Assembly: GCA_025056745.1 (NCBI GenBank)
Contig: JANWVQ010000070.1
Coordinates: 1 to 36,098 of the forward strand
Reading direction: 5' to 3'
DNA: 36,098 bases
Origin: Ignavibacterium sp.
GTDB taxonomy: Bacteria > Bacteroidota > Ignavibacteria > Ignavibacteriales > Ignavibacteriaceae
The notes under the pieces: generated by a model
The model's input: only the letters and a program-made list of their open reading frames with translations
The model's database searches: none
Told to the model about the DNA's origin: nothing
Shown here: one piece after another, positions 3,595-24,125 of the stretch
Layout of the letters: each line of letters begins with the position of its first letter
Position numbering within the stretch: the first letter of the stretch is position 1
Position numbers and translations under genes: made by a program

Positions 3595-3623
3595 ATAGAC
3601 TTAAAACCAAATTGAGGTATTAA

Positions 3624-6503
3624 ATGAAAAAAACAATACTAATACTTGTTCTTTTTATTTTCAACATTTCATCATTTTTTGCCCAAATTAGCTATCAGGG
3701 ACCGGCTGTAGGTAATTCTCCAAGTGGCGTTGTAGTCAATACAAACAATTTCCCTGAAGCTCCAATTAATATTGATCCTCAAATTGTAAGAGACCGAATT
3801 ACTGAATCACCTTATAATGAACCATTTATCGCACAATTTAATGAACCAATCACACCAACAATTTACGTTGAAGATCCATTAATAAATGGTTCAAAGAATA
3901 ATTCAATTGGTGCAAATACAATGTTATTGAAAAAATTTCCGGGAATTCCACAAACTAACTCAATCCCACCAGACCCAACTATTGCTGTTGGGCCTAACCA
4001 CGTTGTTGCTTGTGTTAATTCAAGATTTTCAATTTGGGATAAAAACGGAAATTTATTAAAATCAATTGATGCGGATCAGTGGTGCACACCAGTATTAGCG
4101 AATCCAGGTGCTTTTGATCCTCAAATAATTTATGACCATTTTGAAGGCAGATGGTTTATGCTTTGGGATAATGTAAACAACACTGCACAAACCGCATTTT
4201 TCCTTGTGTTTATTTCAGATGATAATGACCCTCTCGGAGTTTGGTATGGATATAGACTCGATGCGAGAACAAATGGAAATACAGTGACATCAACTTGGGG
4301 AGATTATCCTCAAATCGGCTTTGATGATAAAGCAATCTACATAAATTCTCGTCAATTTAATTTTACCGGTGGAAAAGTTTATGATAAAATTAGAATTATA
4401 ATAAAATCAGAACTTTATGCTGCAAACGGTGCTCCTTTCACCTGGAAAGATTTATGGGGGATAACTATTCCCGGAACTTCTTCTATGGCTGATGTTGTCC
4501 ATCCATCTATTCAATATGGTATATCAAATGAACATTATTTTGTATGGGCTGCTAGGTCTGGCGGTAATTTTTATGGATTTTATGTTTTAAGTAACGTATT
4601 AACAAATCCAACTTTAACTGGTAGACAAATTCCTACTCAGTTTTATGGAATGGCCCCTAATGCAAATCAGTTAGGGGGTGGGTCATTACTTATTGAAACC
4701 AACGGAAGCCATATTAAAACTGCACCCGTGCTAAGAAATGGATTTTTACATTTCACTCACTCTATAAGAAATACTAACTTCCCATCTTATGCTAGTGTTA
4801 GATATGTAAAAATGAACGTAGGAACTGGTACAATAACAGAATCTTATGAATTAGGTGCTGACAGATACTGGTATTTTTATCCTACTGTTGCAGTTGATCC
4901 TGAAGGAAATGTAGCAATTACTTGTTCCCGCTCTGGATTAGATGAATATATTGGTTCATTTTATATAACAAGAAAAGCAAATGATCCTCCTGGATTAAGT
5001 GGGGCAAAATTAATATCACCTGGTTTAGGAAATTATGTTAAGGATTTTGGTTCTGGAAGGAATAGATGGGGAGATTATTTAGGAATATATAGCGATCCGG
5101 TGGATGAGTATAATTTCTGGATGTTTCCTGAACACGCAGCTGCTACCAATACGTGGGGAACTACTGTCGCACTTGTAAGAGTAAGACCTTTCTTTGGTGT
5201 ATATCCATTTACTGATTCTACAAATATTAATTTTGGCAATGTTGAAGTAGGTTTCAGAAGTGATACAATCGGGGTTATTATTAGTAACTATGGTGACTCT
5301 CCATTGATTATCAATAGTATCCCAGATTCAGTAAATGACTTTAGAAGAGTATCTGTTCATTCATTTCCATTGACATTAAACTCGTTCGATTCAATTACAG
5401 TAAAGTTTATATTTCGTCCTCGTAGTGCTGGACTAGTGACTGTAAATTATCCAGTTAACAATAATTCAACAACTTTTACCGGTTTTACTTTTATAGCAAG
5501 AGGATTTGTAATTAATCCTGCTCAACAAGGAGTTTTATATTCTATATCTGGTACTAATAACAATGGAAATTTATCTACTGTAAATGTTAATACTGGTGCC
5601 GGAACTAATATTGGTGTGTCAAACTTTACAGATATTATTGACTTAGCAATTCATCCTACTACAAATGTAATCTATGGTTTAAGAGCATTTTCAAATTACT
5701 CAGAATTATTGAGAATAAATGCTAATGGTGGTGATGCATATAGATTTATTAATTTACCCGTACCTGATTTATATTCAATTGAGTTTGATAGAAATGGATT
5801 ATTTTATGGCGTAAAAAGAACAGGTGAAATCTACAGATTTAATTTACCAACAGGGGATAGTATTTTTATTTCAAGAATGCCTACTGGATTTGTATCAATT
5901 GCATTTGACCCTACGAATAATGAATTATTTGGTACAGTTAGAAATATTCTTGGCTCAGTTCGTGATAGAATTATAAAAATCAATTTACAAACCGGAGATA
6001 CAATTCACGTTGGAAGAACAGGATTTGGTGTTAATACTGTCGGAATTGCTTTTAATAACTCAGGTATTCTCTATGGTATCAAAGGATTATCAACACAAAT
6101 TTCTGATTTATTTACAATTGATAAAACTACTGGAATTGGTACTCTAATAGGACCTATTGGACTCGAAGGACTTCAAGGAATTGCTTTTTCAAGAATATTA
6201 ACTGATGTTAATGATAATTCATTTATACCAAATGAATTTACTTTATTCCAGAACTATCCAAATCCATTCAATCCATCGACAATAATCAGATATCAGATAC
6301 CGAAGAGTGGGTTAGTGAAGTTAAAGATATATGATGTATTAGGGAAAGAAGTAGCGACATTAGTAGATGAATACAAAGAAGCAGGGCGATACGAAGTAGA
6401 ATTAAACGTAGGACAGAGTAATAGTCTGTCAAGTGGAGTTTACATATACAGATTAACCTCAGGGAATTACACAGCCAGCCGAAAGATGATGATAATAAAG
6501 TAA
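3624..6503 (+). CDS. Secreted multidomain protein with T9SS type A sorting domain
   Basis: A 959-residue exported protein. It starts with a Sec signal peptide (Lys-Lys, hydrophobic core, cleavage near FFAQ). Residues about 90-520 form a beta-rich, Trp/Gly-rich region that looks like a propeller or sialidase-like fold. Residues about 536-632 resemble an ASH/HYDIN-type immunoglobulin fold (FGNVEVGFRSDT...ISNYGDSPLIINSI). Residues about 635-855 hold five or more propeller-like repeats of the type xLYGxx..G.....INxxTGxx. The last ~90 residues are a T9SS sorting domain starting near NYPNPFNPST and ending MMIIK. It should cross the outer membrane by T9SS and be released or anchored. The substrate or ligand is unknown. 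No catalytic motif was recognised. It is monocistronic, with convergent transport genes downstream. Confidence 0.85.
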   Translation: MKKTILILVLFIFNISSFFAQISYQGPAVGNSPSGVVVNTNNFPEAPINIDPQIVRDRITESPYNEPFIAQFNEPITPTIYVEDPLINGSKNNSIGANTMLLKKFPGIPQTNSIPPDPTIAVGPNHVVACVNSRFSIWDKNGNLLKSIDADQWCTPVLANPGAFDPQIIYDHFEGRWFMLWDNVNNTAQTAFFLVFISDDNDPLGVWYGYRLDARTNGNTVTSTWGDYPQIGFDDKAIYINSRQFNFTGGKVYDKIRIIIKSELYAANGAPFTWKDLWGITIPGTSSMADVVHPSIQYGISNEHYFVWAARSGGNFYGFYVLSNVLTNPTLTGRQIPTQFYGMAPNANQLGGGSLLIETNGSHIKTAPVLRNGFLHFTHSIRNTNFPSYASVRYVKMNVGTGTITESYELGADRYWYFYPTVAVDPEGNVAITCSRSGLDEYIGSFYITRKANDPPGLSGAKLISPGLGNYVKDFGSGRNRWGDYLGIYSDPVDEYNFWMFPEHAAATNTWGTTVALVRVRPFFGVYPFTDSTNINFGNVEVGFRSDTIGVIISNYGDSPLIINSIPDSVNDFRRVSVHSFPLTLNSFDSITVKFIFRPRSAGLVTVNYPVNNNSTTFTGFTFIARGFVINPAQQGVLYSISGTNNNGNLSTVNVNTGAGTNIGVSNFTDIIDLAIHPTTNVIYGLRAFSNYSELLRINANGGDAYRFINLPVPDLYSIEFDRNGLFYGVKRTGEIYRFNLPTGDSIFISRMPTGFVSIAFDPTNNELFGTVRNILGSVRDRIIKINLQTGDTIHVGRTGFGVNTVGIAFNNSGILYGIKGLSTQISDLFTIDKTTGIGTLIGPIGLEGLQGIAFSRILTDVNDNSFIPNEFTLFQNYPNPFNPSTIIRYQIPKSGLVKLKIYDVLGKEVATLVDEYKEAGRYEVELNVGQSNSLSSGVYIYRLTSGNYTASRKMMIIK

Positions 6504-11627: not shown

Positions 11628-12878
11628 ATGGAAAGATTAAAAAAAGAAGACGTTCATCCTAAAATTGTAGAAGCTCTTTTAAGAGATACAGATATAACTA
11701 TTGATGATGCTTTAGAAAATGAAATGATCCTCAATATGGGTCCTCAACATCCTGCTACTCACGGTGTTCTTAGAGTGTTGTTGAGACTCGATGGTGAAAC
11801 TGTTATGAATGCTGTTCCAGAGCTTGGCTATCTTCATCGTGGTTACGAAAAGATGGCTGAGAATATGAGCTACTATGAATATATCCCTCACACAGATAGA
11901 TTAGATTACATCTCTCCAATGGCTAATAATGTGGCTTGGGTTTTAGCAGTTGAAAAATTAGCTGGTATTGAAGTCCCTCTTCGTGCTCAATACATTAGAA
12001 TGATGGTTGCCGAATTAGCAAGAATCGCTTCTCACTTAGTTGCAATTGGTGCATTTGCAATGGATGTTGGTGCTTTAACAGTTTTTCTTTGGACTTTGAG
12101 AGAAAGAGAAAAAATTCTTGATATTTGGGATATTCTTTGCGGAGCAAGATTTACCAATAGTTACACCAGAATTGGTGGAGTCGCAAACGATGCTCAACCT
12201 GAAGCTTTAGCAAAAGTTAAATGGTTTATAGATCAATTCGATGAAAATTTAACAGAATGTGAAAAACTACTAAATTCAAATAGAATTTTTATAGAAAGAC
12301 TCGAGAATATTGGAATTCTCCCAGCTGATTTAGCAATTGATTTAGGTGTTACAGGTCCAAGTCTAAGAGCTTCAGGAGTTGAATTTGATCTCCGCAGGGC
12401 AACACCATATCTACAATATGACAAGATTGATTTTAATATTCCAACTTATACAGAAGGAGATTGCTTAGCCAGATACTTTGTTCGTGTTGATGAAATGCGT
12501 GAAAGTGCAAAAATCGTCCGTCAAGTTTTAGATAAAATGCCGCAAGGTGAAATCTTGGCTAATATGCCTAAAAAAGTTCTTCCTAAGAAAACTGAAATTT
12601 ACACCAGAATGGAAGAATTAATTCACGATTTTATGATTGTTAATTTTGGAATTAATCCACCAGTTGGAGAAATTTATCACGCAATTGAAGGTTCTAAAGG
12701 AGAATTAGGATTTTATTTAGTAAGCAAAGGTGAAGGACATCCTTGGAAGTGTAAGATAAGATCTCCATCTTTTAATAATCTTCAAGCATTACCTTATTTG
12801 GTTAAGGGACATATGGTTTCTGATGTAGTTGCTATTATTGGAAGTATTGATCCGATAATGGGAGAAGCGGATAAGTGA
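11628..12878 (+). CDS. nuoD: NADH-quinone oxidoreductase subunit D
   Basis: The 49-kDa-type subunit of complex I, which with NuoB lines the quinone pocket. The 416-residue protein has NMGPQHPATHGVLR near residue 35, the conserved HRGYEKMAE segment, YTRIGG, and a normal closing SIDPIMGEADK. The C-terminus is therefore intact even though the four-helix-bundle element begins immediately at its stop codon. The stop TGA overlaps the GTG of that gene (GTGA). It was probably followed directly by nuoE before the element arrived (inference). Confidence 0.97.
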   Translation: MERLKKEDVHPKIVEALLRDTDITIDDALENEMILNMGPQHPATHGVLRVLLRLDGETVMNAVPELGYLHRGYEKMAENMSYYEYIPHTDRLDYISPMANNVAWVLAVEKLAGIEVPLRAQYIRMMVAELARIASHLVAIGAFAMDVGALTVFLWTLREREKILDIWDILCGARFTNSYTRIGGVANDAQPEALAKVKWFIDQFDENLTECEKLLNSNRIFIERLENIGILPADLAIDLGVTGPSLRASGVEFDLRRATPYLQYDKIDFNIPTYTEGDCLARYFVRVDEMRESAKIVRQVLDKMPQGEILANMPKKVLPKKTEIYTRMEELIHDFMIVNFGINPPVGEIYHAIEGSKGELGFYLVSKGEGHPWKCKIRSPSFNNLQALPYLVKGHMVSDVVAIIGSIDPIMGEADK

Positions 12879-13333
12879 GTTCACATTCAAGTTTAAGTTC
12901 AGGTTCAAGCTCAAGTTCAAGAGGTGATGGGATTTTATATGCAAATTCTAATTTTAGTCACGAAAAGTTAATTGTTTATAATAGAGCTCTGGACTTTATT
13001 GAATTCGCTGAGCCTTTATTAAAAAAAATTAAAAATGATTCATTCTTACATAATCAACTAGAAAGAAGTTCGTCATCAATAGCATTAAATATTGCAGAAG
13101 GAACTGGTAAATTTACACACAAAGATAAAAACAGATTCTATGATATTGCACGGGGCTCTGCTGTTGAATCAGCTTTTTGTTTGGATATACTATTGAGAAA
13201 AAATCTAATATCAAAAGATGAAAATGAAATTGGTAAAAAAATTTTATATGAGATTGTTTCAATGTTATTTGGCCTTATAAAAAGTAATTCAGATAGGGTA
13301 TATGAAGACTCAGAAAATTACGAAGCAACTTAA
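12875..13333 (+). CDS. Four-helix-bundle protein of the S23 / 23S rRNA intervening-sequence family
   Basis: A 152-residue protein. From about residue 28 it matches the four-helix-bundle family (TIGR02436) first described in 23S rRNA intervening sequences. The hallmark QLERSSSSIALNIAEGTG occurs near residues 62-79, and ARGSAVES near 92-99. The function of the family is unknown; relatives include the avd proteins of retroelements. Residues 2-16 are almost all serine because the frame runs through a TTCAAG-type repeat. The only in-frame start found is a GTG overlapping the nuoD stop; the ATG at 12939 is out of frame. It is foreign to complex I operons and is enclosed by an inverted repeat (12889-12915 and 13351-13377), which suggests a mobile IVS-like unit. 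Confidence 0.85.
   Translation: MSSHSSLSSGSSSSSRGDGILYANSNFSHEKLIVYNRALDFIEFAEPLLKKIKNDSFLHNQLERSSSSIALNIAEGTGKFTHKDKNRFYDIARGSAVESAFCLDILLRKNLISKDENEIGKKILYEIVSMLFGLIKSNSDRVYEDSENYEAT
12889..12915 (+). repeat. Left arm of the inverted repeat (TTCAAG-type hexamers)
   Basis: This 27-bp arm pairs with 13351-13377. It is translated as Ser-rich sequence at the N-terminus of the four-helix-bundle protein. Further TTCAA units continue to about 12920. Confidence 0.85.
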
Positions 13334-15256: not shown

Positions 15257-15751
15257 TTAGTCTTCTTTACGCTCGCCTAATTCCTTATCCAACAAATATA
15301 ATCCCTGTTTACTATCACCAATCATCTCAAATTTTGCAATTATCTCTTCTGCAGTGGTGACTTCTTCAATTTGTTCATCTACAAACCAATTCAAAAAATT
15401 AATAGAAGCATAATCATTGTCTTCAATGGCTTGCTTCATAATATTGTTAATCATATTAGTCACTTTTTTCTCGTGATTAAGAGTATCTTGCCATACCTCC
15501 ATAACAGATGACCATTCTGTTTTGGGATCTGGTATTGCCTTGAGAACAACTTTCTTTCCAACGGTTACCAAGTAATCATAAAACTTCATCGCGTGTTCTC
15601 TTTCTTCTTCAGATTGCTTTCGCATCCATTTAGCAAGACCGCGAAGATTTTTATTCTCGAAATATGCAGCCATTGAAAGATAAAGATAAGATGCATTTAA
15701 TTCGGCGTTAACCTGATTAAGCATCAATTCATAAATATTTTCTGAAATCAT
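15257..15751 (-). CDS. ftnA: Ferritin (non-heme, iron storage)
   Basis: A cytosolic iron-storage protein that oxidises Fe(II) and stores it as mineral in a 24-mer cage. The 164-residue sequence is a four-helix bundle with the ferroxidase ligands Glu17, Glu50, His53, Glu94, Gln127 and Glu130; Tyr24 is also conserved. EEEREHAMKFYDYL and LNWFVDEQIEE are typical of bacterial FtnA, and there is no bacterioferritin heme methionine pattern. A GAGGTAATT ribosome-binding site precedes the ATG. It is convergent with nuoF and divergent from the T9SS gene at 15898, with a 146-bp AT-rich gap that should contain its promoter. No Fur box could be confirmed by eye. Confidence 0.95.
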   Translation of the reverse strand: MISENIYELMLNQVNAELNASYLYLSMAAYFENKNLRGLAKWMRKQSEEEREHAMKFYDYLVTVGKKVVLKAIPDPKTEWSSVMEVWQDTLNHEKKVTNMINNIMKQAIEDNDYASINFLNWFVDEQIEEVTTAEEIIAKFEMIGDSKQGLYLLDKELGERKED

Positions 15752-15897: not shown

Positions 15898-16728
15898 TTG
15901 AGAAAAATAATTTTTTATATCTTGTTTACTTTTACTATTACTGAGGCACAATGGCAAAATATTTGGACTTCACCAAATATTCCGGGCAGTGCATCTACGG
16001 GTTATTTAAGTTTTCAAAAAATTGGTAATAATTGGGATAAAAGAATTTATTACCTTGATTCAATCAAATTCTATATTTCATCATCCTCAACAAATTTGAA
16101 TCCACAATACACTTATTTTTTTACTCCAGAGGAGAAACTTGCAGGATATCAATTGTATTCGCTACAGACGGATCTAACAGGAGATGGAATTACAGAGTTT
16201 TATGTGATTGGTTATGTTGGAACTTCAACTGATTATCGTCAATATGTTAAAATTTTTAATATTGTAAATAACTCTATTGTATTTCAAGGAAATCAAAATA
16301 ATTACAGTTATTCTTACCCAACTTTGATGGACATTAATTCAGATGGATTGCTTGAATGTATCTTTACCAAGTGGAATTATCCTTACAATAACACTTATTT
16401 TTATGAAATTTACACAACGGGGGTTACCTCCACTGAAGGAAACAACGAGAATATTGGTTTCAACTTAAATCAAAATTTCCCTAATCCTTTCAACAGTGAA
16501 ACAAACATTTCATTTACGATTGAGAAAGCAGGTCACGTTAGACTAAAAATTTATAACGTGAATGGAGAGGAATTAACAACTTTAATTGACAACTACTTAC
16601 CATCCGGTAATCATACAATAAAATGGAATGGCTCGACTAAAGATAAGTTCATAACTTCTGGTGTTTATTTTTATGAATTATCAATTGATGGAAAAAATTC
16701 AGTTAAAAAAATGATTCAATTAAAGTAA
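15898..16728 (+). CDS. Small secreted T9SS-sorted protein with FG-GAP/VCBS-like repeats
   Basis: A 276-residue protein with a TTG start after an AGAAAGGGA ribosome-binding site. Residues 1-18 are a signal peptide ending at about ITEAQ. Two acidic loop motifs, DLTGDGITEF and DINSDGLLEC, match the calcium-loop part of FG-GAP/VCBS repeats. Residues about 185-276 are a T9SS type A sorting domain (NFPNPFNSET...SGVYFYELS...MIQLK). It is predicted to be exported to the cell surface. It lies 19 bp before the PqqD-like gene, so it may be the first gene of the metabolic and transport unit that follows. Its specific function is unknown. Confidence 0.8.
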   Translation: MRKIIFYILFTFTITEAQWQNIWTSPNIPGSASTGYLSFQKIGNNWDKRIYYLDSIKFYISSSSTNLNPQYTYFFTPEEKLAGYQLYSLQTDLTGDGITEFYVIGYVGTSTDYRQYVKIFNIVNNSIVFQGNQNNYSYSYPTLMDINSDGLLECIFTKWNYPYNNTYFYEIYTTGVTSTEGNNENIGFNLNQNFPNPFNSETNISFTIEKAGHVRLKIYNVNGEELTTLIDNYLPSGNHTIKWNGSTKDKFITSGVYFYELSIDGKNSVKKMIQLK

Positions 16729-16747
16729 TTAATAATTGGAGAAGAAA

Positions 16748-17002
16748 ATGAAAGCGTATAGTATTCCGGAAAATATTGCAATAAGTGATTCCGGATTTAT
16801 TTTCCTGCCCACTACTGGGGAGACTTTTACATTAAATGAAACAGGTAAAACCATCTTCAAATATTTTCAACAAAAAAGAAATCTTGATGAAATAATTAAT
16901 AGTCTATTAGATGAATATGAAATTGATAGATTAACTCTTGAAAGAGATTTAGAAGATTTTATTCTTAGATTAAAAAGTTTAAATCTTTTAGTTGAATTAT
17001 GA
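16748..17002 (+). CDS. PqqD-like small protein (RiPP recognition element fold)
   Basis: An 84-residue protein resembling the PqqD family, a winged-helix domain that binds leader peptides or carriers for modifying enzymes. The pattern is family-like: a beta hairpin with SGFIFLPTTGETFTLNETGK, then helices with LDEIINSLLDEYEIDRLTLERDLEDF and a closing hydrophobic segment. The start is the ATG at 16748 because GGAGAAG lies at 16738-16744; a TTG at 16736 overlaps that site. Its stop overlaps the ATP-grasp start as ATGA. No radical SAM partner or obvious precursor peptide is nearby, so binding to a peptide leader is only one possibility. Confidence 0.7.
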   Translation: MKAYSIPENIAISDSGFIFLPTTGETFTLNETGKTIFKYFQQKRNLDEIINSLLDEYEIDRLTLERDLEDFILRLKSLNLLVEL

Positions 17003-18033
17003 AAATTGCTGTAACAGGTCTTAATGCCACTGACAACCCGGGTCCCGGTGTCCCAGTAATCAGAAGTTTATACTATTCGAAAGACTTTGCTGGTGAAATA
17101 ATAGGTTTGATTTACGATGCTTTGGAACCTGGTATTTATATGGATAATATCACCAAACGAAATTATCTTATACCATATCCATCTAGTGGACTTCAAAACC
17201 TTTATGAACGACTCGTATATATTCAACAACAAGAAAAAATTGATGTAATCATTCCCACTTTGGATTCAGAATTGTTTGGCTTTGTAAAATTAGAAGATAA
17301 ACTAAAAAAACTCGGTATCAAAATGTTTTTGCCAACGTTCGAACAACTAAATATAAGAGCCAAGGATAAACTATTTGATTTTTGTAAAGGAAATGAAATT
17401 AATGTTCCTAAAAATATTCTCGTATCTTCTTTAATCGATTTGATGAAAATTCCAGAGGAATTTGAATATCCGGTTGTTGTTAAAGGAATATTTTACGATG
17501 CATACATTGTTAACAATTTCGAAGAAGCAAAGACAGCATTTCTTAAAATATCTTCAAAATGGGGATTGCCTATTATCATTCAAGAATTTCTAAAAGGTGA
17601 TGAGTTTAATGTAGTTGCGCTTGGTGACGGTAGTGGTCAGACTGTTGGTGCTGTAGCAATGAGAAAACTTTACATTACTGAAAAAGGAAAGGGATGGGCT
17701 GGTGTAACTATTTTTGATAATAACTTGATTGAAATTTCAAAAAAAGTTATTGAAAAAATAAAATGGCGTAGTGGAATGGAACTGGAGTTTATCAAAAGTT
17801 CAGAAACAGGGCAATATTATCTACTTGAAATAAATCCACGTTTTCCAGCTTGGGTTTATCTCGCTCCGAATGCTGGGCAAAATCTTCCTTACGCACTATT
17901 GCAATTAGCTTTAGGAAATAATGTTGAGAAATTCGATAACTATAAAGTAGGAACAATCTTTGTTAGATCATCTTGGGATTTAATTACAGATATTTCAACT
18001 CTTGAAAAAATTTCTACTCAAGGAGAAATTTGA
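16999..18033 (+). CDS. ATP-grasp ligase
   Basis: A 344-residue enzyme of the ATP-grasp superfamily, which joins a carboxylate to an amine or thiol through an acyl-phosphate. An N-terminal pre-ATP-grasp domain (about 1-105) is followed by the ATP-grasp fold. YPVVVKGIFYDAY supplies a nucleotide-binding Lys, IIIQEFLKGDEFNVVA is the central strand, and the metal-binding set is E277-I-N279-P-R281. It resembles carbamoyl-phosphate-synthase-like and peptide-ligase members rather than Ddl. The substrate is unknown. Translational coupling to the PqqD-like gene (ATGA) and a 1-bp gap to the decarboxylase gene argue that the three products work on one pathway. Confidence 0.85.
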   Translation: MKIAVTGLNATDNPGPGVPVIRSLYYSKDFAGEIIGLIYDALEPGIYMDNITKRNYLIPYPSSGLQNLYERLVYIQQQEKIDVIIPTLDSELFGFVKLEDKLKKLGIKMFLPTFEQLNIRAKDKLFDFCKGNEINVPKNILVSSLIDLMKIPEEFEYPVVVKGIFYDAYIVNNFEEAKTAFLKISSKWGLPIIIQEFLKGDEFNVVALGDGSGQTVGAVAMRKLYITEKGKGWAGVTIFDNNLIEISKKVIEKIKWRSGMELEFIKSSETGQYYLLEINPRFPAWVYLAPNAGQNLPYALLQLALGNNVEKFDNYKVGTIFVRSSWDLITDISTLEKISTQGEI

Positions 18034-18034
18034 T

Positions 18035-19387
18035 ATGTCAAAAAAAATTTATGAAAGACCAATTATTACTAAAAATCAGGCAGGATTCTTAAATAAATTT
18101 GGTTCAAGTTCAATAGTAAAACCAAAGGTTGAAATCGATGGAATTTTAGTAAAAGATTTAGTTAATCAATGGGGTTCACCTCTTTTTGTTATATCTGAAA
18201 AGAAAATTCGTTCGAATCAGAGAAACGCGTTAAGAATTTTCAAATCAAGATATCCAAAAGTGCAATTTGCCTGGTCTTATAAAACAAACTATTTGAAAGC
18301 TGTATGTGCAGTTTTTCATTCTGAAGGATCTTGGGCTGAAGTAGTATCAGAGTTTGAGTATCAAAAAGCAAGAAGGCTTGGAATACCAGGTGAACACATA
18401 ATTTTCAATGGGCCTGATAAATCCGATAAAGCATTATTAACTGCTATTAAAGAGAATGCTAAAATACATATTGATCACTTTGATGAATTATATAAAATAA
18501 TTGAAATTACAGAAGATAATAACCTTAAAGCAAATGTCGCAATCAGGGTAAATATGGATGTTGGTGTTTATCCAAAATGGGATAGATTTGGATTTAACTA
18601 TGAAAATGGAGAAGCCTGGCAAGCTTTGAAAAGAATTGCTGTGTCGAAAAATCTAAATTTAATTGGACTGCATACTCATATTGGAACTTATATGATGAGT
18701 GCAGATGCTTATCGGATTGCTGCTAATAAGTTAGTTGATTTAGCAAAAGGATTAAAAAATAATTATAACATAGTTTTAGAATATATTGATTTAGGTGGAG
18801 GATTTGCATCTCACAATACTTTACTTGGTCAGTATCTTCCAGCTGAAGAAGTTGTCCCTTCAACAGAGCAATATGCAGATGCAATAGCCTCAAGTTTGTT
18901 TGAACTATCCGCAAATTATGATGAATTACCAACTTTAATTCTTGAAACGGGAAGAGCTTTAATTGATGATGCAGCATATTTAATTACAAAAGTGATTGCG
19001 AATAAACGTCTTTCAACTGGGAAAAAAGCTATTATAATTGATGCTGGAGTTAATATACTTTTTACAAGTTTTTGGTATAAACACAAAATCACTCCAGCAA
19101 ATGAAACAGGAATTCATACAGAAGATTCAGCAATTTATGGCCCTCTTTGTATGAATATTGATTGTATCAGAGAAAGCATAGTTTTCCCAAATGTCAAAAA
19201 GGATGATTTGCTTGTAATTGAATATGTTGGTGCCTATGATATGACTCAATGGATGCAATTCATAAATATGAGACCAAACGTTTTGATGATAATGCAAGAT
19301 GGAACCGTTGAGCTCATAAGAAAAGCTGAGGATATTGATTACATTGAACAACAAGAAATTTTACCAAAAAGTCTTAAACTCTCTTAG
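18035..19387 (+). CDS. Fold-III PLP-dependent decarboxylase (LysA/ornithine decarboxylase superfamily)
   Basis: A 450-residue enzyme with an alanine-racemase-like barrel and a C-terminal beta domain. Lys83 in AWSYKTNY should form the PLP aldimine; GLHTHIGTYM and YIDLGGGFAS line the phosphate site. Cys372 is in GPLCMNID. Diaminopimelate decarboxylase normally has Glu after this Cys; here it is Met, so a different substrate is likely. The ATG at 18035 is preceded by AAGGAGAAA, and earlier in-frame starts lie inside the ATP-grasp gene. It abuts the next gene with no gap. The pairing with an ATP-grasp ligase recalls BtrJ/BtrK of butirosin biosynthesis, where Glu is loaded on a carrier and decarboxylated; this is an analogy, not an assignment. 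Confidence 0.85.
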   Translation: MSKKIYERPIITKNQAGFLNKFGSSSIVKPKVEIDGILVKDLVNQWGSPLFVISEKKIRSNQRNALRIFKSRYPKVQFAWSYKTNYLKAVCAVFHSEGSWAEVVSEFEYQKARRLGIPGEHIIFNGPDKSDKALLTAIKENAKIHIDHFDELYKIIEITEDNNLKANVAIRVNMDVGVYPKWDRFGFNYENGEAWQALKRIAVSKNLNLIGLHTHIGTYMMSADAYRIAANKLVDLAKGLKNNYNIVLEYIDLGGGFASHNTLLGQYLPAEEVVPSTEQYADAIASSLFELSANYDELPTLILETGRALIDDAAYLITKVIANKRLSTGKKAIIIDAGVNILFTSFWYKHKITPANETGIHTEDSAIYGPLCMNIDCIRESIVFPNVKKDDLLVIEYVGAYDMTQWMQFINMRPNVLMIMQDGTVELIRKAEDIDYIEQQEILPKSLKLS

Positions 19388-21526
19388 ATGATATTTTTCA
19401 TTGATTCTGTTTTATACAGCTATGCTCAAATTTTCTTCAGCAATAGAAGATGGTTTGGATTTATCATTCTTCTGGTTTCCTTTTTAACTCCATTGATTGG
19501 AGCTTTTGGCTTATTTGGAGTTATTACCACCAACCTTATTGCCTATTATCTTAAATTCGATTCAAATAAAATTCGCTCAGGATTTTATGGTTTCAATGGA
19601 TTGCTTTTTTCTGCAGCTGTAGGTTTTTTTTATGATCTTTCAATTGAATTAGTTTTATTACTTCCTGTTTTTATTTTAATTACTTTTTTCATAACTACGG
19701 TTTTAGAGCACTATTTAGCAGTTGCATTTAATCTACCGGGACTTAGTTTACCATTTATAGTTTCTTTTTACGTTTTTAGTATTTTTTTGTTCAATTATGA
19801 AGGAATTGAATTAAGCAAACATTTATACAAACTGGATTTTGCATTATCGCTGCCTAAGTCAGTTGTAATTTTTTTTAAGTCTATAGGATTGATTATCCTG
19901 CAACCTTCTGTTTTAGCTGGCTTGATAATAATTATTGCAATACTTTTTTTCTCAAGAGTTCTTTTTATTATTTCAATAATAAGTTTTTTAGTGAATTATT
20001 ATTTCCTCGAAATCATTTTACCACTAAAATCAGATTCATTGGTTATCATATCATCATTAAACTCAATTTTAGTTGGATTTGCTGTTGGGGCAAGTCTTGT
20101 AATTCCATCAAGAAAAAGTGTGATTTTGGTAATCATCTCTGTTATTATGACTATTATTTCAATTGGATTTTTTCAACAGGTTTTTGCTTCAACAAGACTT
20201 CCGATTTTTGTTTTGCCATTTAATTTCATTGTTCTTTTAGTTATTTACAGTCTGAAGTTCAGAAAAGATCATACTGATTTAACTCTTTTATATTTCAAAC
20301 CAGGTTCACCTGAAGAAAATTATTATTATCATCATAATCAAAAAGCAAGATTTGAAAAGTTTAAATACTTTTTCGTTGAACTTCCATTTTTCGGTGAAAT
20401 GAAAGTATCTCAAGGTTTCAATGGTGCATACACTCATAAAGATGATTGGAAATATGCCTGGGATTTTGTCTCTGTTGATGATAATAATAACGAATTCAAA
20501 AATGATGGTTCAAAGCCAGAGGATTATTATTGTTATGATTTGCCAGTTATTGCTCCATTAGATGGGGAAGTTGTAAAAATAGTAGATAAAATTTTAGATA
20601 ATCCAATCGGTGATGTAAATGTTGAAAAAAATTGGGGCAACACAATTGTAATTAAACATTCTGAAGATTTTTATTCGGCTATTTCACATCTCAAAGAAGG
20701 TTCCTTCAAAGTTGGAGTTGGAGAAAAAGTAAAAAAGGGTTCGATATTAGCAAGGTGCGGAAATAGCGGCCGCTCGCCTTATCCTCATATTCATTTTCAG
20801 TTTCAGTTGACTGATAAAATTGGTGAAAAAACTTTTAAATATCCTTTTGGTATTTATATATCTAAAACTGAAAACAAAAAAGAACTCAAGATTTTTGATT
20901 TCCCAAGTGAAAATGAATTAGTAAAGAACATTGAAGTTCACAAAACAATTAAAAATGCTTTTGAATTCAAGTTAGGAAATAAATACTATTTTTCTTATTC
21001 AAAGAATAATAAGATGATTGAAGAAGAATGGGAAGTGAAAATTGATATTTATAACCTGACTTACATTGAAAATAATTCCGGAGATGTAGCTTATTTCTTT
21101 TTAAGAGATAAACTATTTTATTTCACATCCTACATCGGAAATAAAAATTCTGCTCTATATTACTTTTATTTATCAGCTCCACTTGTTCCATTTACTTACG
21201 AAAAAGATTTAAGTTGGGTAGCACCATATTCAATCAGAGATTTGAATAATACAAATTATATTTACTTAAATGAGTTACTTTTGATATATAAGAATTTACT
21301 TAATGCTTATGGTAAGATAAATATCATTGAAAATCCCGAAATAAAGAATAATTTTTCAATTGAAAATGAGATTAATACAAAAGGAATTGGGTTATTTAAG
21401 TTTGTAAACGTTCAAGATAAATCAATAATCTTTATTAATGATTCTGGAATAATTTCGGAGTTAAATTTTTATAGAAATAATAAGCTTATATTTAATGCAA
21501 AAAATCAAAATCAGGAGAACAAATGA
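19388..21526 (+). CDS. Urea-transporter-like channel fused to an M23 metallopeptidase domain
   Basis: A 712-residue fusion. Residues about 1-300 are hydrophobic and show the two-fold repeat of the urea transporter family: GFYGFNGLLFSAAVG with LPGLSLPF in the first half, and SLNSILVGFAVGAS with TRLPIFVLPFNF in the second. Residues about 345-490 are an M23 peptidase domain with His350, Asp359, His434 in ISHLKEG, and H467-I-H469-F. All zinc and catalytic positions seem present. The last ~200 residues are unassigned beta-rich sequence. The product should be an inner-membrane channel with a periplasmic peptidoglycan-active or peptide-binding domain. Start and stop are coupled to both neighbours. 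No urease genes are visible here. Confidence 0.82.
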   Translation: MIFFIDSVLYSYAQIFFSNRRWFGFIILLVSFLTPLIGAFGLFGVITTNLIAYYLKFDSNKIRSGFYGFNGLLFSAAVGFFYDLSIELVLLLPVFILITFFITTVLEHYLAVAFNLPGLSLPFIVSFYVFSIFLFNYEGIELSKHLYKLDFALSLPKSVVIFFKSIGLIILQPSVLAGLIIIIAILFFSRVLFIISIISFLVNYYFLEIILPLKSDSLVIISSLNSILVGFAVGASLVIPSRKSVILVIISVIMTIISIGFFQQVFASTRLPIFVLPFNFIVLLVIYSLKFRKDHTDLTLLYFKPGSPEENYYYHHNQKARFEKFKYFFVELPFFGEMKVSQGFNGAYTHKDDWKYAWDFVSVDDNNNEFKNDGSKPEDYYCYDLPVIAPLDGEVVKIVDKILDNPIGDVNVEKNWGNTIVIKHSEDFYSAISHLKEGSFKVGVGEKVKKGSILARCGNSGRSPYPHIHFQFQLTDKIGEKTFKYPFGIYISKTENKKELKIFDFPSENELVKNIEVHKTIKNAFEFKLGNKYYFSYSKNNKMIEEEWEVKIDIYNLTYIENNSGDVAYFFLRDKLFYFTSYIGNKNSALYYFYLSAPLVPFTYEKDLSWVAPYSIRDLNNTNYIYLNELLLIYKNLLNAYGKINIIENPEIKNNFSIENEINTKGIGLFKFVNVQDKSIIFINDSGIISELNFYRNNKLIFNAKNQNQENK

Positions 21527-22158
21527 AAAATTTTGTTTTAATTAGTTTATCGTTGGTCGTAATACTATTTGTAGTATTTTCAGTTTTAGCCTTTGAACAA
21601 AAAATTGATCCTAAGATAACAGCGTTCAATAAATCTTTAAGTCACGAGACAAACAAAGATTATGAGAAAGCTATAAAAGAATTGCTAAATGTTTATAATG
21701 AGAATAAGGATAATTATCTGATAAATTTAAGATTAGGATGGTTATATTATAACTGGGGCTTATATAATGAATCAAAGATATATTATGAAAATGCGACAAA
21801 AATTTCACCAAATAGTATTGAAGCAAAAATTGGACTAACGTTTCCGTTATCTAAACTTGAAAAATGGGATGAAGTAAAAAAAATCTATGAGCAAATTCTT
21901 ACTTTAGATCCACAGAACTATACAGCAAATCTGAGATTAGGGCAGTATCATCTTTTGCGTGGAAACTATTCAGATGCAAATAAATACTTATCGGTTAGCT
22001 ATAAAAATTATCCTTCAGATTACGAATCAAATTTATCTTATGGTTGGACGCAATATTATATTGGAAATAAAAAGAAAGCAAAAGAATTATTCATTAATAC
22101 GCTTATGCTTTCTCCAAATGACTCCTTAGCTACAATTGGTTATAACCTTTCACAATGA
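21523..22158 (+). CDS. Exported tetratricopeptide-repeat (TPR) protein
   Basis: A 211-residue protein with an N-terminal hydrophobic segment (about 4-24) that is a signal peptide or anchor, followed by four to five TPR units. Examples are YLINLRLGWLYYNWGLYNES and YTANLRLGQYHLLRGNYSDA. TPR units form a helical superhelix for protein binding, so it is probably a periplasmic adaptor between the channel-peptidase fusion and the outer-membrane protein that follows. Both of its ends overlap neighbouring genes as ATGA. No enzyme motif was found. Confidence 0.82.
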   Translation: MKNFVLISLSLVVILFVVFSVLAFEQKIDPKITAFNKSLSHETNKDYEKAIKELLNVYNENKDNYLINLRLGWLYYNWGLYNESKIYYENATKISPNSIEAKIGLTFPLSKLEKWDEVKKIYEQILTLDPQNYTANLRLGQYHLLRGNYSDANKYLSVSYKNYPSDYESNLSYGWTQYYIGNKKKAKELFINTLMLSPNDSLATIGYNLSQ

Positions 22159-22970
22159 TAGTATTTTTTCTTTTTGTTTTTTTTATTACAAATTTGACTG
22201 CACAAGAGTCTATGACAATAATTTCAATTTCACCTTTTTATACTCACGGTAAATATTCAAATGAAATTGACTCGGATTCAAAAGCATTGTATGGAACTCT
22301 AAATCTTGATGGAGATTTAATTTCGACATTTGGAATAGATTTAATTTCATTAAAGCATAATAATTGGGATTATAAGCAAAATACTTATTACTTATCATTT
22401 ACCAAAAAAATTTCAGATTATTATGTAAAGATATCAGGTGCTTTATGTAAAGGAGATTATTTAGACAATAAATTCAGTTTTCTAAATTATCAGGATAAGA
22501 ATTTCTCTTTTACCACTGAATTTATTTACAAATATAATTGGCAGTATTATGGTGTAGGATTCAATTATTTTAATTCATCAAAAGGTTGGCAAATCGTTGA
22601 ATCAGGAAATCTAACTTTAAGATATGAAGCCTTTTTAGATTACTATAATTATTTATCAGTTAGACCAAATATTTATCTTGAGAATAAAGGCAAAAAATTA
22701 ATCTCGATTTCATCAAAATTTATACATTGGTTTAATTCTGATTTTCTAGCAAACATATCCTTAACAATTGGAAAAAGAAAATATTATTTTGATAATGATT
22801 TGTTAACTATTTATAATCAATATGAAACACAAAAATTCGTATTTGGGGTAGCATTAAATTATAGTTTATTTAATTATTTAACTATATCAAGCGGATATCA
22901 ACATAAAAAATTTGAAGAATATAATGTAAATTATTTTTTCCTTGGTTTTCGTTCTGAATTCTTCTTGTGA
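22155..22970 (+). CDS. Outer-membrane beta-barrel-like protein (possibly YaiO-like)
   Basis: A 271-residue protein with a signal peptide ending near LTAQE. The mature part has alternating hydrophobic and polar residues rich in Tyr, Phe, Asn and Lys, as in outer-membrane barrels. It ends RSEFFL, near the aromatic C-terminus typical of barrels. TPR plus barrel is the architecture of YaiO-type proteins, here split into two genes. It is the last gene of the coupled unit; gapA follows after 96 bp. A role in exporting or importing the product of the pathway is inferred from position. Confidence 0.65.
   Translation: MIVFFLFVFFITNLTAQESMTIISISPFYTHGKYSNEIDSDSKALYGTLNLDGDLISTFGIDLISLKHNNWDYKQNTYYLSFTKKISDYYVKISGALCKGDYLDNKFSFLNYQDKNFSFTTEFIYKYNWQYYGVGFNYFNSSKGWQIVESGNLTLRYEAFLDYYNYLSVRPNIYLENKGKKLISISSKFIHWFNSDFLANISLTIGKRKYYFDNDLLTIYNQYETQKFVFGVALNYSLFNYLTISSGYQHKKFEEYNVNYFFLGFRSEFFL

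Positions 22971-23048: not shown

Positions 23049-24125
<1,077 letters not shown>

Follow-up and report, generated by a model that had tools for sequence, protein, structure and literature searches.

The 36,098-nucleotide stretch of Ignavibacterium sp. DNA analysed here (contig JANWVQ010000070.1; hereafter the window) carries seven co-directional genes that behave as one cassette, present or absent together. They encode a surface protein secreted by the type IX secretion system (T9SS), a small PqqD-like protein, an ATP-grasp ligase, a pyridoxal phosphate (PLP) decarboxylase, a fusion of a urea transporter (UT) channel to an M23 metallopeptidase (UT-M23), a tetratricopeptide repeat (TPR) protein and a predicted outer-membrane β-barrel (Table 1). 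We put at about 0.45 the probability that the cassette is a self-contained system for the synthesis and export of an amide-linked amine.

Extent and recurrence of the cassette

In three relatives that do not carry the unit (G236, G294 and G140), a ferritin gene and a glyceraldehyde-3-phosphate dehydrogenase (GAPDH) gene adjoin each other, with 219, 378 and 259 bp between them; phosphoglycerate kinase and a rhomboid gene come next, and in L163, nuoF lies next to ferritin. The window has the seven genes (15898-22970) exactly between ferritin and GAPDH. Taken together, the three empty sites and the window arrangement place the T9SS gene within the block that is present or absent. The distribution of the unit is patchy inside one genus, and no mobile element was seen at the cassette junctions, where no further test for one was made. 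An earlier reading of the window by a model working from the sequence alone (hereafter, the first-pass annotation) had set the T9SS gene apart as an upstream neighbour of six coupled genes. Its position was correctly described, with 19 bp between the T9SS stop and the PqqD ATG, but the empty sites and the copies found in a second bacterial group make it a member of the cassette. The open reading frame (ORF) coordinates also agree with the claimed coupling of the six genes from 16748 to 22970, which are joined by ATGA overlaps at 16999, 21523 and 22155 and by gaps of 1 bp (18034) and 0 bp (19388); an alternative TTG start of the decarboxylase, at 18002, is likewise open. The largest internal spacing of the cassette is about 20 bp. 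Family calls were made on the cassette proteins with Pfam and NCBIfam profiles, and the earlier family assignments proved correct.

In one even draw of 296 genomes from the phylum of the window, UT-M23, the ATP-grasp ligase and the decarboxylase were each found in an identical set of 27 genomes. The ATP-grasp ligase scores 490-595 bits in these genomes, against 75 bits for the next match, and the decarboxylase 704-815 bits, with no other match at E 1e-60; among the UT-M23 copies, one is split into two ORFs and one lacks the C-terminal domain. The genes for PqqD, ATP-grasp, decarboxylase and UT-M23 are clustered, and in this order, in 27/27 genome neighbourhoods. A wider scan, reduced to one genome per species, yielded 80 named loci labelled as Ignavibacteria, Bacteroidales, Flavobacteriales, Cyclobacteriaceae, Chitinophagales, Saprospiraceae, Rhodothermaceae and others; its 586 motif matches are not used as a species count, and the motif may also occur in stand-alone M23 proteins. 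PqqD, ATP-grasp and decarboxylase are present in 50 of the 51 named loci with sufficient upstream DNA, the TPR gene in 60 and the barrel in all of the 61 with sufficient downstream DNA. In most Ignavibacteria loci, the gene directly before PqqD encodes the T9SS protein; the FG-GAP type was found in 29/115 loci, some of them incomplete; in L056, a T9SS-like gene intervenes between PqqD and the remaining genes. Pairwise distances of the ATP-grasp, decarboxylase and UT-M23 proteins correlate with r = 0.86-0.88 (67 loci), as expected of co-inherited genes. Carriage on plasmids was rejected, since a search of 72,556 plasmids revealed no UT-M23, its matches being stand-alone M23 proteins or generic LysA-like enzymes.

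The second group, comprising 149 genomes of the group of G296 (the locus of which is titled Candidatus Neomarinimicrobiota; hereafter, the Marinimicrobia-labelled group), contains the decarboxylase in 16 genomes, six at 765-775 bits and ten, diverged, at 574-601 bits. Wherever the contig is long enough, the diverged copies present PqqD, ATP-grasp, decarboxylase and UT-M23 in the same core order; their identity to the window proteins is about 44% for the decarboxylase and likewise for the ATP-grasp ligase. Upstream of PqqD, these copies feature a T9SS/FG-GAP protein homologous to that of the window (hhalign probability 99.8), a barrel homologous to the window barrel (hhalign 99.2) and a small secreted protein of 141 aa, which is conserved and directly precedes PqqD. 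The recurrence of the gene set is hence far beyond chance, its genes being together in all 27 genomes of the draw with any of the three large proteins and again in a second phylum-level group. They stay together well past close strains, in 27/27 genomes and 50/51 loci, and the unit claimed by the first-pass annotation survives the comparison of neighbourhoods that might have dissolved it.

Enzymes of the cassette

The best solved relative of the decarboxylase is the N-citrylornithine decarboxylase FigC (7kh2, 4.7e-87), and the NCBIfam FslC profile matches it at 1.2e-69, under the family's own cut-off. K83 (the PLP lysine), H213, C372 and M373 are invariant. According to PMC7857480, the substrates of FigC, SbnH, AcsE, MccE and BtrK are all conjugated amino acids; M355 of FigC stands in for the acid (Asp) to which a free distal amine binds, and the FigC pocket holds T327, T330 and Y331, with H357 and R387 modelled as citrate contacts. 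Across 26 aligned cassette sequences, the M355 position (M373 in the window, beside the catalytic C372) is Met in 26/26, the T327 position is Thr or Ser, the Y331 position is Tyr or Phe and the T330 position is Trp in 26/26, while both citrate contacts are absent, with Ile at the H357 and Gln at the R387 position in 26/26. Since the FigC-type Met, T327 and Y331 positions are kept and the citrate contacts replaced, the substrate would be an amino acid conjugated at its far end, but not with citrate. The earlier view of this protein as an amine-making fold-III enzyme is thus right as to family and too generic as to function, the FigC-type pocket pointing to a conjugated amino acid. The cassette enzyme shares with the siderophore decarboxylases FigC/FslC, SbnH and AcsE the Met beside the catalytic Cys and the conserved T327 and Y331 positions, and differs from them in its Ile and Gln residues and in the lack of an accompanying non-ribosomal-peptide-synthetase-independent siderophore (NIS) synthetase and of a major facilitator superfamily exporter. 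Neither the NIS synthetase family nor that of an uptake receptor is represented among the seven cassette proteins in the Pfam and NCBIfam assignments, the rest of the genome not having been searched.

The ATP-grasp ligase is the sole ligase encoded in the cassette, and its E277, I278, N279, P280 and R281 are invariant in 18 sequences, as in catalytic ATP-grasp enzymes. Being the only ligase, and by analogy with BtrJ and, weakly, with PylC, it may be regarded as the natural source of the conjugated substrate of the decarboxylase. We take BtrJ to be the ATP-grasp ligase of the butirosin route and the partner of a BtrK-type decarboxylase. The butirosin proteins BtrI, BtrJ and BtrK resemble the cassette in pairing an ATP-grasp enzyme with a same-family decarboxylase whose substrate is an amino acid linked beforehand to a partner. 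BtrK, however, works with the 87-aa carrier BtrI (PMC7857480), an acyl carrier, whereas the 84-aa PqqD-like protein is of the winged-helix type of ribosomally synthesized and post-translationally modified peptide (RiPP) recognition elements (RREs), without an invariant Ser or Cys, and the butirosin route contains no UT-M23, TPR or barrel protein.

All 23 homologues of the PqqD-like protein match PF05402, and its closest PDB relatives are the lasso-peptide B1/RRE proteins TbiB1 and TfuB1. The invariant positions of the alignment (G16, F17, F19, G24, N30 and I36) include no Ser or Cys, that is, no carrier-type attachment site, and the protein may have an adaptor role toward the two enzymes or their substrate. 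It shares with PqqD and lasso B1 proteins the Pfam family, the size and the fold signature, but the cassette has no PqqE, lasso cyclase or precursor, and the genome lacks a PqqE match over the TIGR02109 cut-off (best match 54 bits versus 381). Graspetide clusters likewise feature an ATP-grasp ligase beside a small RRE-like protein; the cassette differs from them in its ATPgrasp_Ter/CPSase-like subfamily of ATP-grasp, in the absence of a precursor gene and in its extra decarboxylase and transport genes.

Envelope proteins of the cassette

UT-M23 comprises a UT channel (residues ~1-300), an M23/LytM metallopeptidase (~330-500) and a β-rich C-terminal domain (~505-706). Its AlphaFold2 model (pLDDT 92.2) is matched by Foldseek to the urea transporter dvUT (3k3f, 9e-15, TM-score 0.82) and to a LytM domain (4e-6), and the UT domain retains the pore fold and the FNxxL motifs. 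Gln24 and Glu187 of dvUT are presumably the polar residues of the urea site. Among 52 homologues of the cassette protein, the Gln24 position is Gln in 44, and the Glu187 position is Ala in 32, Leu in 13, another residue in seven and Glu in none. The assignment to the UT family made in the first-pass annotation is hence sound, but should not be taken to imply that urea-like small molecules are passed, the Glu187 ligand being lost in all homologues. Relative to bacterial and animal urea transporters (UT/SLC14), the cassette UT preserves the fold, the FNxxL motifs and, mostly, the Gln24 position; it departs from them in having no Glu187 equivalent, in its fusion to M23 and a β-domain and in being locked to two enzyme genes.

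Within the M23 domain, the candidate zinc ligands and catalytic His (H350, D359, H434, H467 and H469) are invariant in the 52 homologues, with an H-to-D spacing of 9 versus the usual 4. Stand-alone relatives of this unusual M23 subtype, L143 and L144 among them, are found on plasmids of Thermus and of haloarchaea, the latter being organisms without peptidoglycan, and the substrate of the domain therefore need not be peptidoglycan. The TPR protein is probably periplasmic. The last gene of the cassette is predicted with high confidence to encode a porin-type outer-membrane barrel, its AlphaFold2 model (pLDDT 93.7) displaying 14 strands and a signal helix and finding in OmpG its nearest Foldseek match (5e-10). 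Profile comparison also relates this barrel to the TPR-barrel found in other Bacteroidota loci (hhalign 94.8).

A proposed model for synthesis and export

In the proposed route, the PqqD-like protein would be the docking or substrate-presenting partner of the ATP-grasp ligase, which would activate a carboxylate and link it to an amino acid at the end of the side chain, or else couple an amino acid through its side-chain carboxyl, on the model of BtrJ in butirosin synthesis or of PylC with lysine. The FigC-type decarboxylase would strip the α-carboxylate of the conjugate, yielding an amide-linked primary amine. The UT domain would provide the passage of the product across the inner membrane, the fused M23 domain would trim it or open its path through the wall, and the TPR protein would pass it on to the 14-strand barrel. 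The T9SS-secreted surface protein of FG-GAP type may act with the product in the Ignavibacteria and in the Marinimicrobia-labelled group. Export appears the preferable direction, since the cassette encodes synthesis and no receptor.

Several points weigh against this model. The resemblance of the ATP-grasp ligase to PylC is weak, consisting of an N-domain match (PF21360, E 2e-4), and its nearest solved structure, 2pn1, has to our knowledge no established function. Channels of the UT fold conduct small neutral molecules passively and may be closed to an aminoacyl-amine, and the TPR protein and barrel could serve uptake. Furthermore, an orphan UT-M23 without the enzymes is seen in L100, a locus from a 1.9-Mb, probably incomplete genome the available sequence of which has no decarboxylase. 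Lastly, product, substrate and transport direction are all inferred. The cytosolic amide or amine route spanning both membranes put forward by the first-pass annotation still provides the best reading of the cassette, in which export and product remain proposals.

Alternative explanations

The best-surviving alternative, which we nevertheless regard as unlikely, is the modification of a peptide or protein, in which the PqqD/RRE protein would bind part of a protein encoded in the cassette, for instance the T9SS/FG-GAP protein or the small secreted 141-aa protein of the second group, which the ATP-grasp ligase and decarboxylase would furnish with an amine-bearing group before secretion. The best matches of PqqD to RRE proteins, the linkage of the T9SS protein in the Ignavibacteria and the Marinimicrobia-labelled group, the conservation of the 141-aa protein directly before PqqD and the activity of a related decarboxylase, MccE, on a modified peptide-nucleotide (PMC7857480) are all consistent with such a role. 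However, the genes touch or overlap from 16748 and the flanking gaps measure 146 and 96 bp, leaving no space for a short precursor ORF and weakening the peptide-modification branch of the first-pass annotation; the FG-GAP-type T9SS protein is not universal; and T9SS substrates cross as exported proteins, so that the UT channel is left unexplained. A RiPP with its precursor in cis was rejected for the same lack of room in cassette and flanks, and a RiPP-type precursor encoded in trans, or a larger protein of the cassette serving as substrate, is possible.

Salvage or remodelling of cell-wall peptides appears improbable. Here M23 would cut peptidoglycan peptides, the UT channel would move the fragments inward and the decarboxylase and ATP-grasp ligase would process peptides containing diaminopimelate (DAP). 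The decarboxylase and DAP decarboxylase have a common ancestry (PMC7857480), M23 proteins are usually wall peptidases and the candidate ligands are invariant in UT-M23; moreover, the gene after the barrel in L033 encodes an anhydro-MurNAc kinase, and two further loci have homologues at this position. Yet the acid that DAP and ornithine enzymes use beside the catalytic Cys is Met in 26/26 sequences, relatives of this M23 subtype reside in organisms without peptidoglycan, and known wall recycling includes neither PqqD nor an outer-membrane barrel.

We consider more doubtful still a metallophore pathway, in which the ATP-grasp ligase and the FigC-type decarboxylase would make an exported metal chelator. 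FigC, SbnH and AcsE are siderophore enzymes (PMC7857480), and 13 loci (L082, L088, L090, L093, L107, L111, L115, L124, L127, L129, L130, L131 and L134) carry, directly before PqqD and in two of them on the opposite strand, an AraC-type regulator whose N-terminal part resembles, by eye, a heavy-metal-associated (HMA) metal-binding domain. The metal role of this regulator is only putative, however, the cassette proteins include no NIS synthetase or TonB receptor, and the citrate-binding residues of FigC are lost in all sequences. Least probable is that a surface polymer, such as a polyamide, leaves the cell through a TPR-barrel like those of polysaccharide export, with UT as the inner-membrane path: the N-terminal segment of the barrel has weak TPR-like matches in most non-Ignavibacteria loci and weak, TPR-level similarity to VexE and PgaA, but the likeness to exporters is confined to the TPR part and the core lacks a polymerase or glycosyltransferase.

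Relation to known systems

Other known kinds of system were rejected on specific grounds. Biosynthesis of pyrroloquinoline quinone (PQQ) is at odds with the lack of PqqE in the genome over the cut-off; plain urea transport or uptake, with the loss of Glu187 and the strict linkage to two enzymes; an NIS siderophore, with the lost citrate contacts and the lack of an NIS synthetase in the cassette; and a BtrIJK-like carrier route, with the lack of a conserved attachment Ser in PqqD. Anti-phage defence was likewise discarded, PADLOC giving two weak matches only (E 0.006-0.008), both to the TPR protein. No description of the cluster was found in the open-licence literature, a body of work that does not extend to subscription papers. 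Provisionally, then, the unit falls outside every known kind tested (PQQ, RiPP, NIS siderophore, BtrIJK, urea transport and defence), the assignment being provisional because it rests on the failure of one defining feature per kind and on that negative in the open-licence literature. More tentatively than the synthesis-and-export model itself, we propose that the cassette is an undescribed envelope-spanning machine for biosynthesis and export, shared by two phylum-level groups, in which a repurposed UT-M23 would carry a new amide-linked amine toward the barrel and a PqqD-assisted ATP-grasp/decarboxylase pair would be its maker.

Such a machine would represent a natural-product family, with an export route of its own, in environmental bacteria across a phylum; it would also show a urea-channel fold at work in biosynthesis and place PqqD proteins in a new setting that involves no precursor peptide. 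Because the genes co-occur so strictly and the empty sites are clean, the question lends itself to direct testing.

Gene layout and accessory genes

Table 1. Genes of the cassette and its boundaries in the window, with the matches on which each call rests.
Feature	Coordinates	Strand	Basis
T9SS-secreted FG-GAP-type surface protein, 276 aa	15898..16728	+	Pfam Por_Secre_tail 3e-7, FG-GAP_3 0.0014
PqqD-like small protein, winged-helix/RRE type, 84 aa	ATG 16748..17002	+	PF05402 7.5e-14
ATP-grasp ligase, 344 aa	16999..18033	+	PF15632 (ATPgrasp_Ter) 1.2e-12, PF02655 6e-8, PF21360 2e-4
Fold-III PLP decarboxylase, FigC/FslC type, 450 aa	ATG 18035..19387	+	Orn_Arg_deC_N 9.5e-31 and C-terminal sheet domain
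UT-M23 fusion, 712 aa	19388..21526	+	UT 6.8e-42, Peptidase_M23 8.3e-14
TPR protein, N-terminal hydrophobic segment, 211 aa	21523..22158	+	TPR_2 5e-15
Predicted outer-membrane β-barrel, 14 strands, signal helix 2-16, 271 aa	22155..22970	+	AlphaFold2, no family match
Ferritin gene, left boundary, outside the unit	15257..15751	-	Adjoins GAPDH in three unit-less relatives
GAPDH gene, right boundary, outside the unit	23067..24125	+	Adjoins ferritin in three unit-less relatives

Several loci carry additional genes. A membrane acyltransferase is encoded in or beside the cassette, at varying positions, in seven loci (L032:2425-3510, L036, L037, L068, L094, L108:2345-3388 and L130:6934-7977); it belongs to HGSNAT/Acyl_transf_3 in the two loci tested and would fit N-acetylation of an amine product. 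A gene of the IF-2B family (sugar-phosphate isomerase-like) lies between decarboxylase and UT-M23 in four (L089:7123-7956, L091, L101 and L102). Together with the AraC-type regulator of 13 loci, these accessory genes do not settle the product. In L100 (3112-5297), several small ORFs lie upstream of the orphan UT-M23, and two of them (3618-3872 and 4317-4646) share an NRPWGRPIHQT stretch reminiscent of the precursor peptides of ATP-grasp-modified RiPPs. In the single-contig genome G124, the unit is found at both contig ends (C1:56-4956 and C1:3731467-3736372) with identical scores, probably through assembly overlap, and one of the UT-M23 copies is broken by a stop. Outside the cassette, an ORF for a four-helix bundle (S23-like by eye) precedes nuoE at 12875-13333 of the window, and ORFs resembling it occupy cassette gaps in L089 (5185-5592) and L129 (5337-5729).

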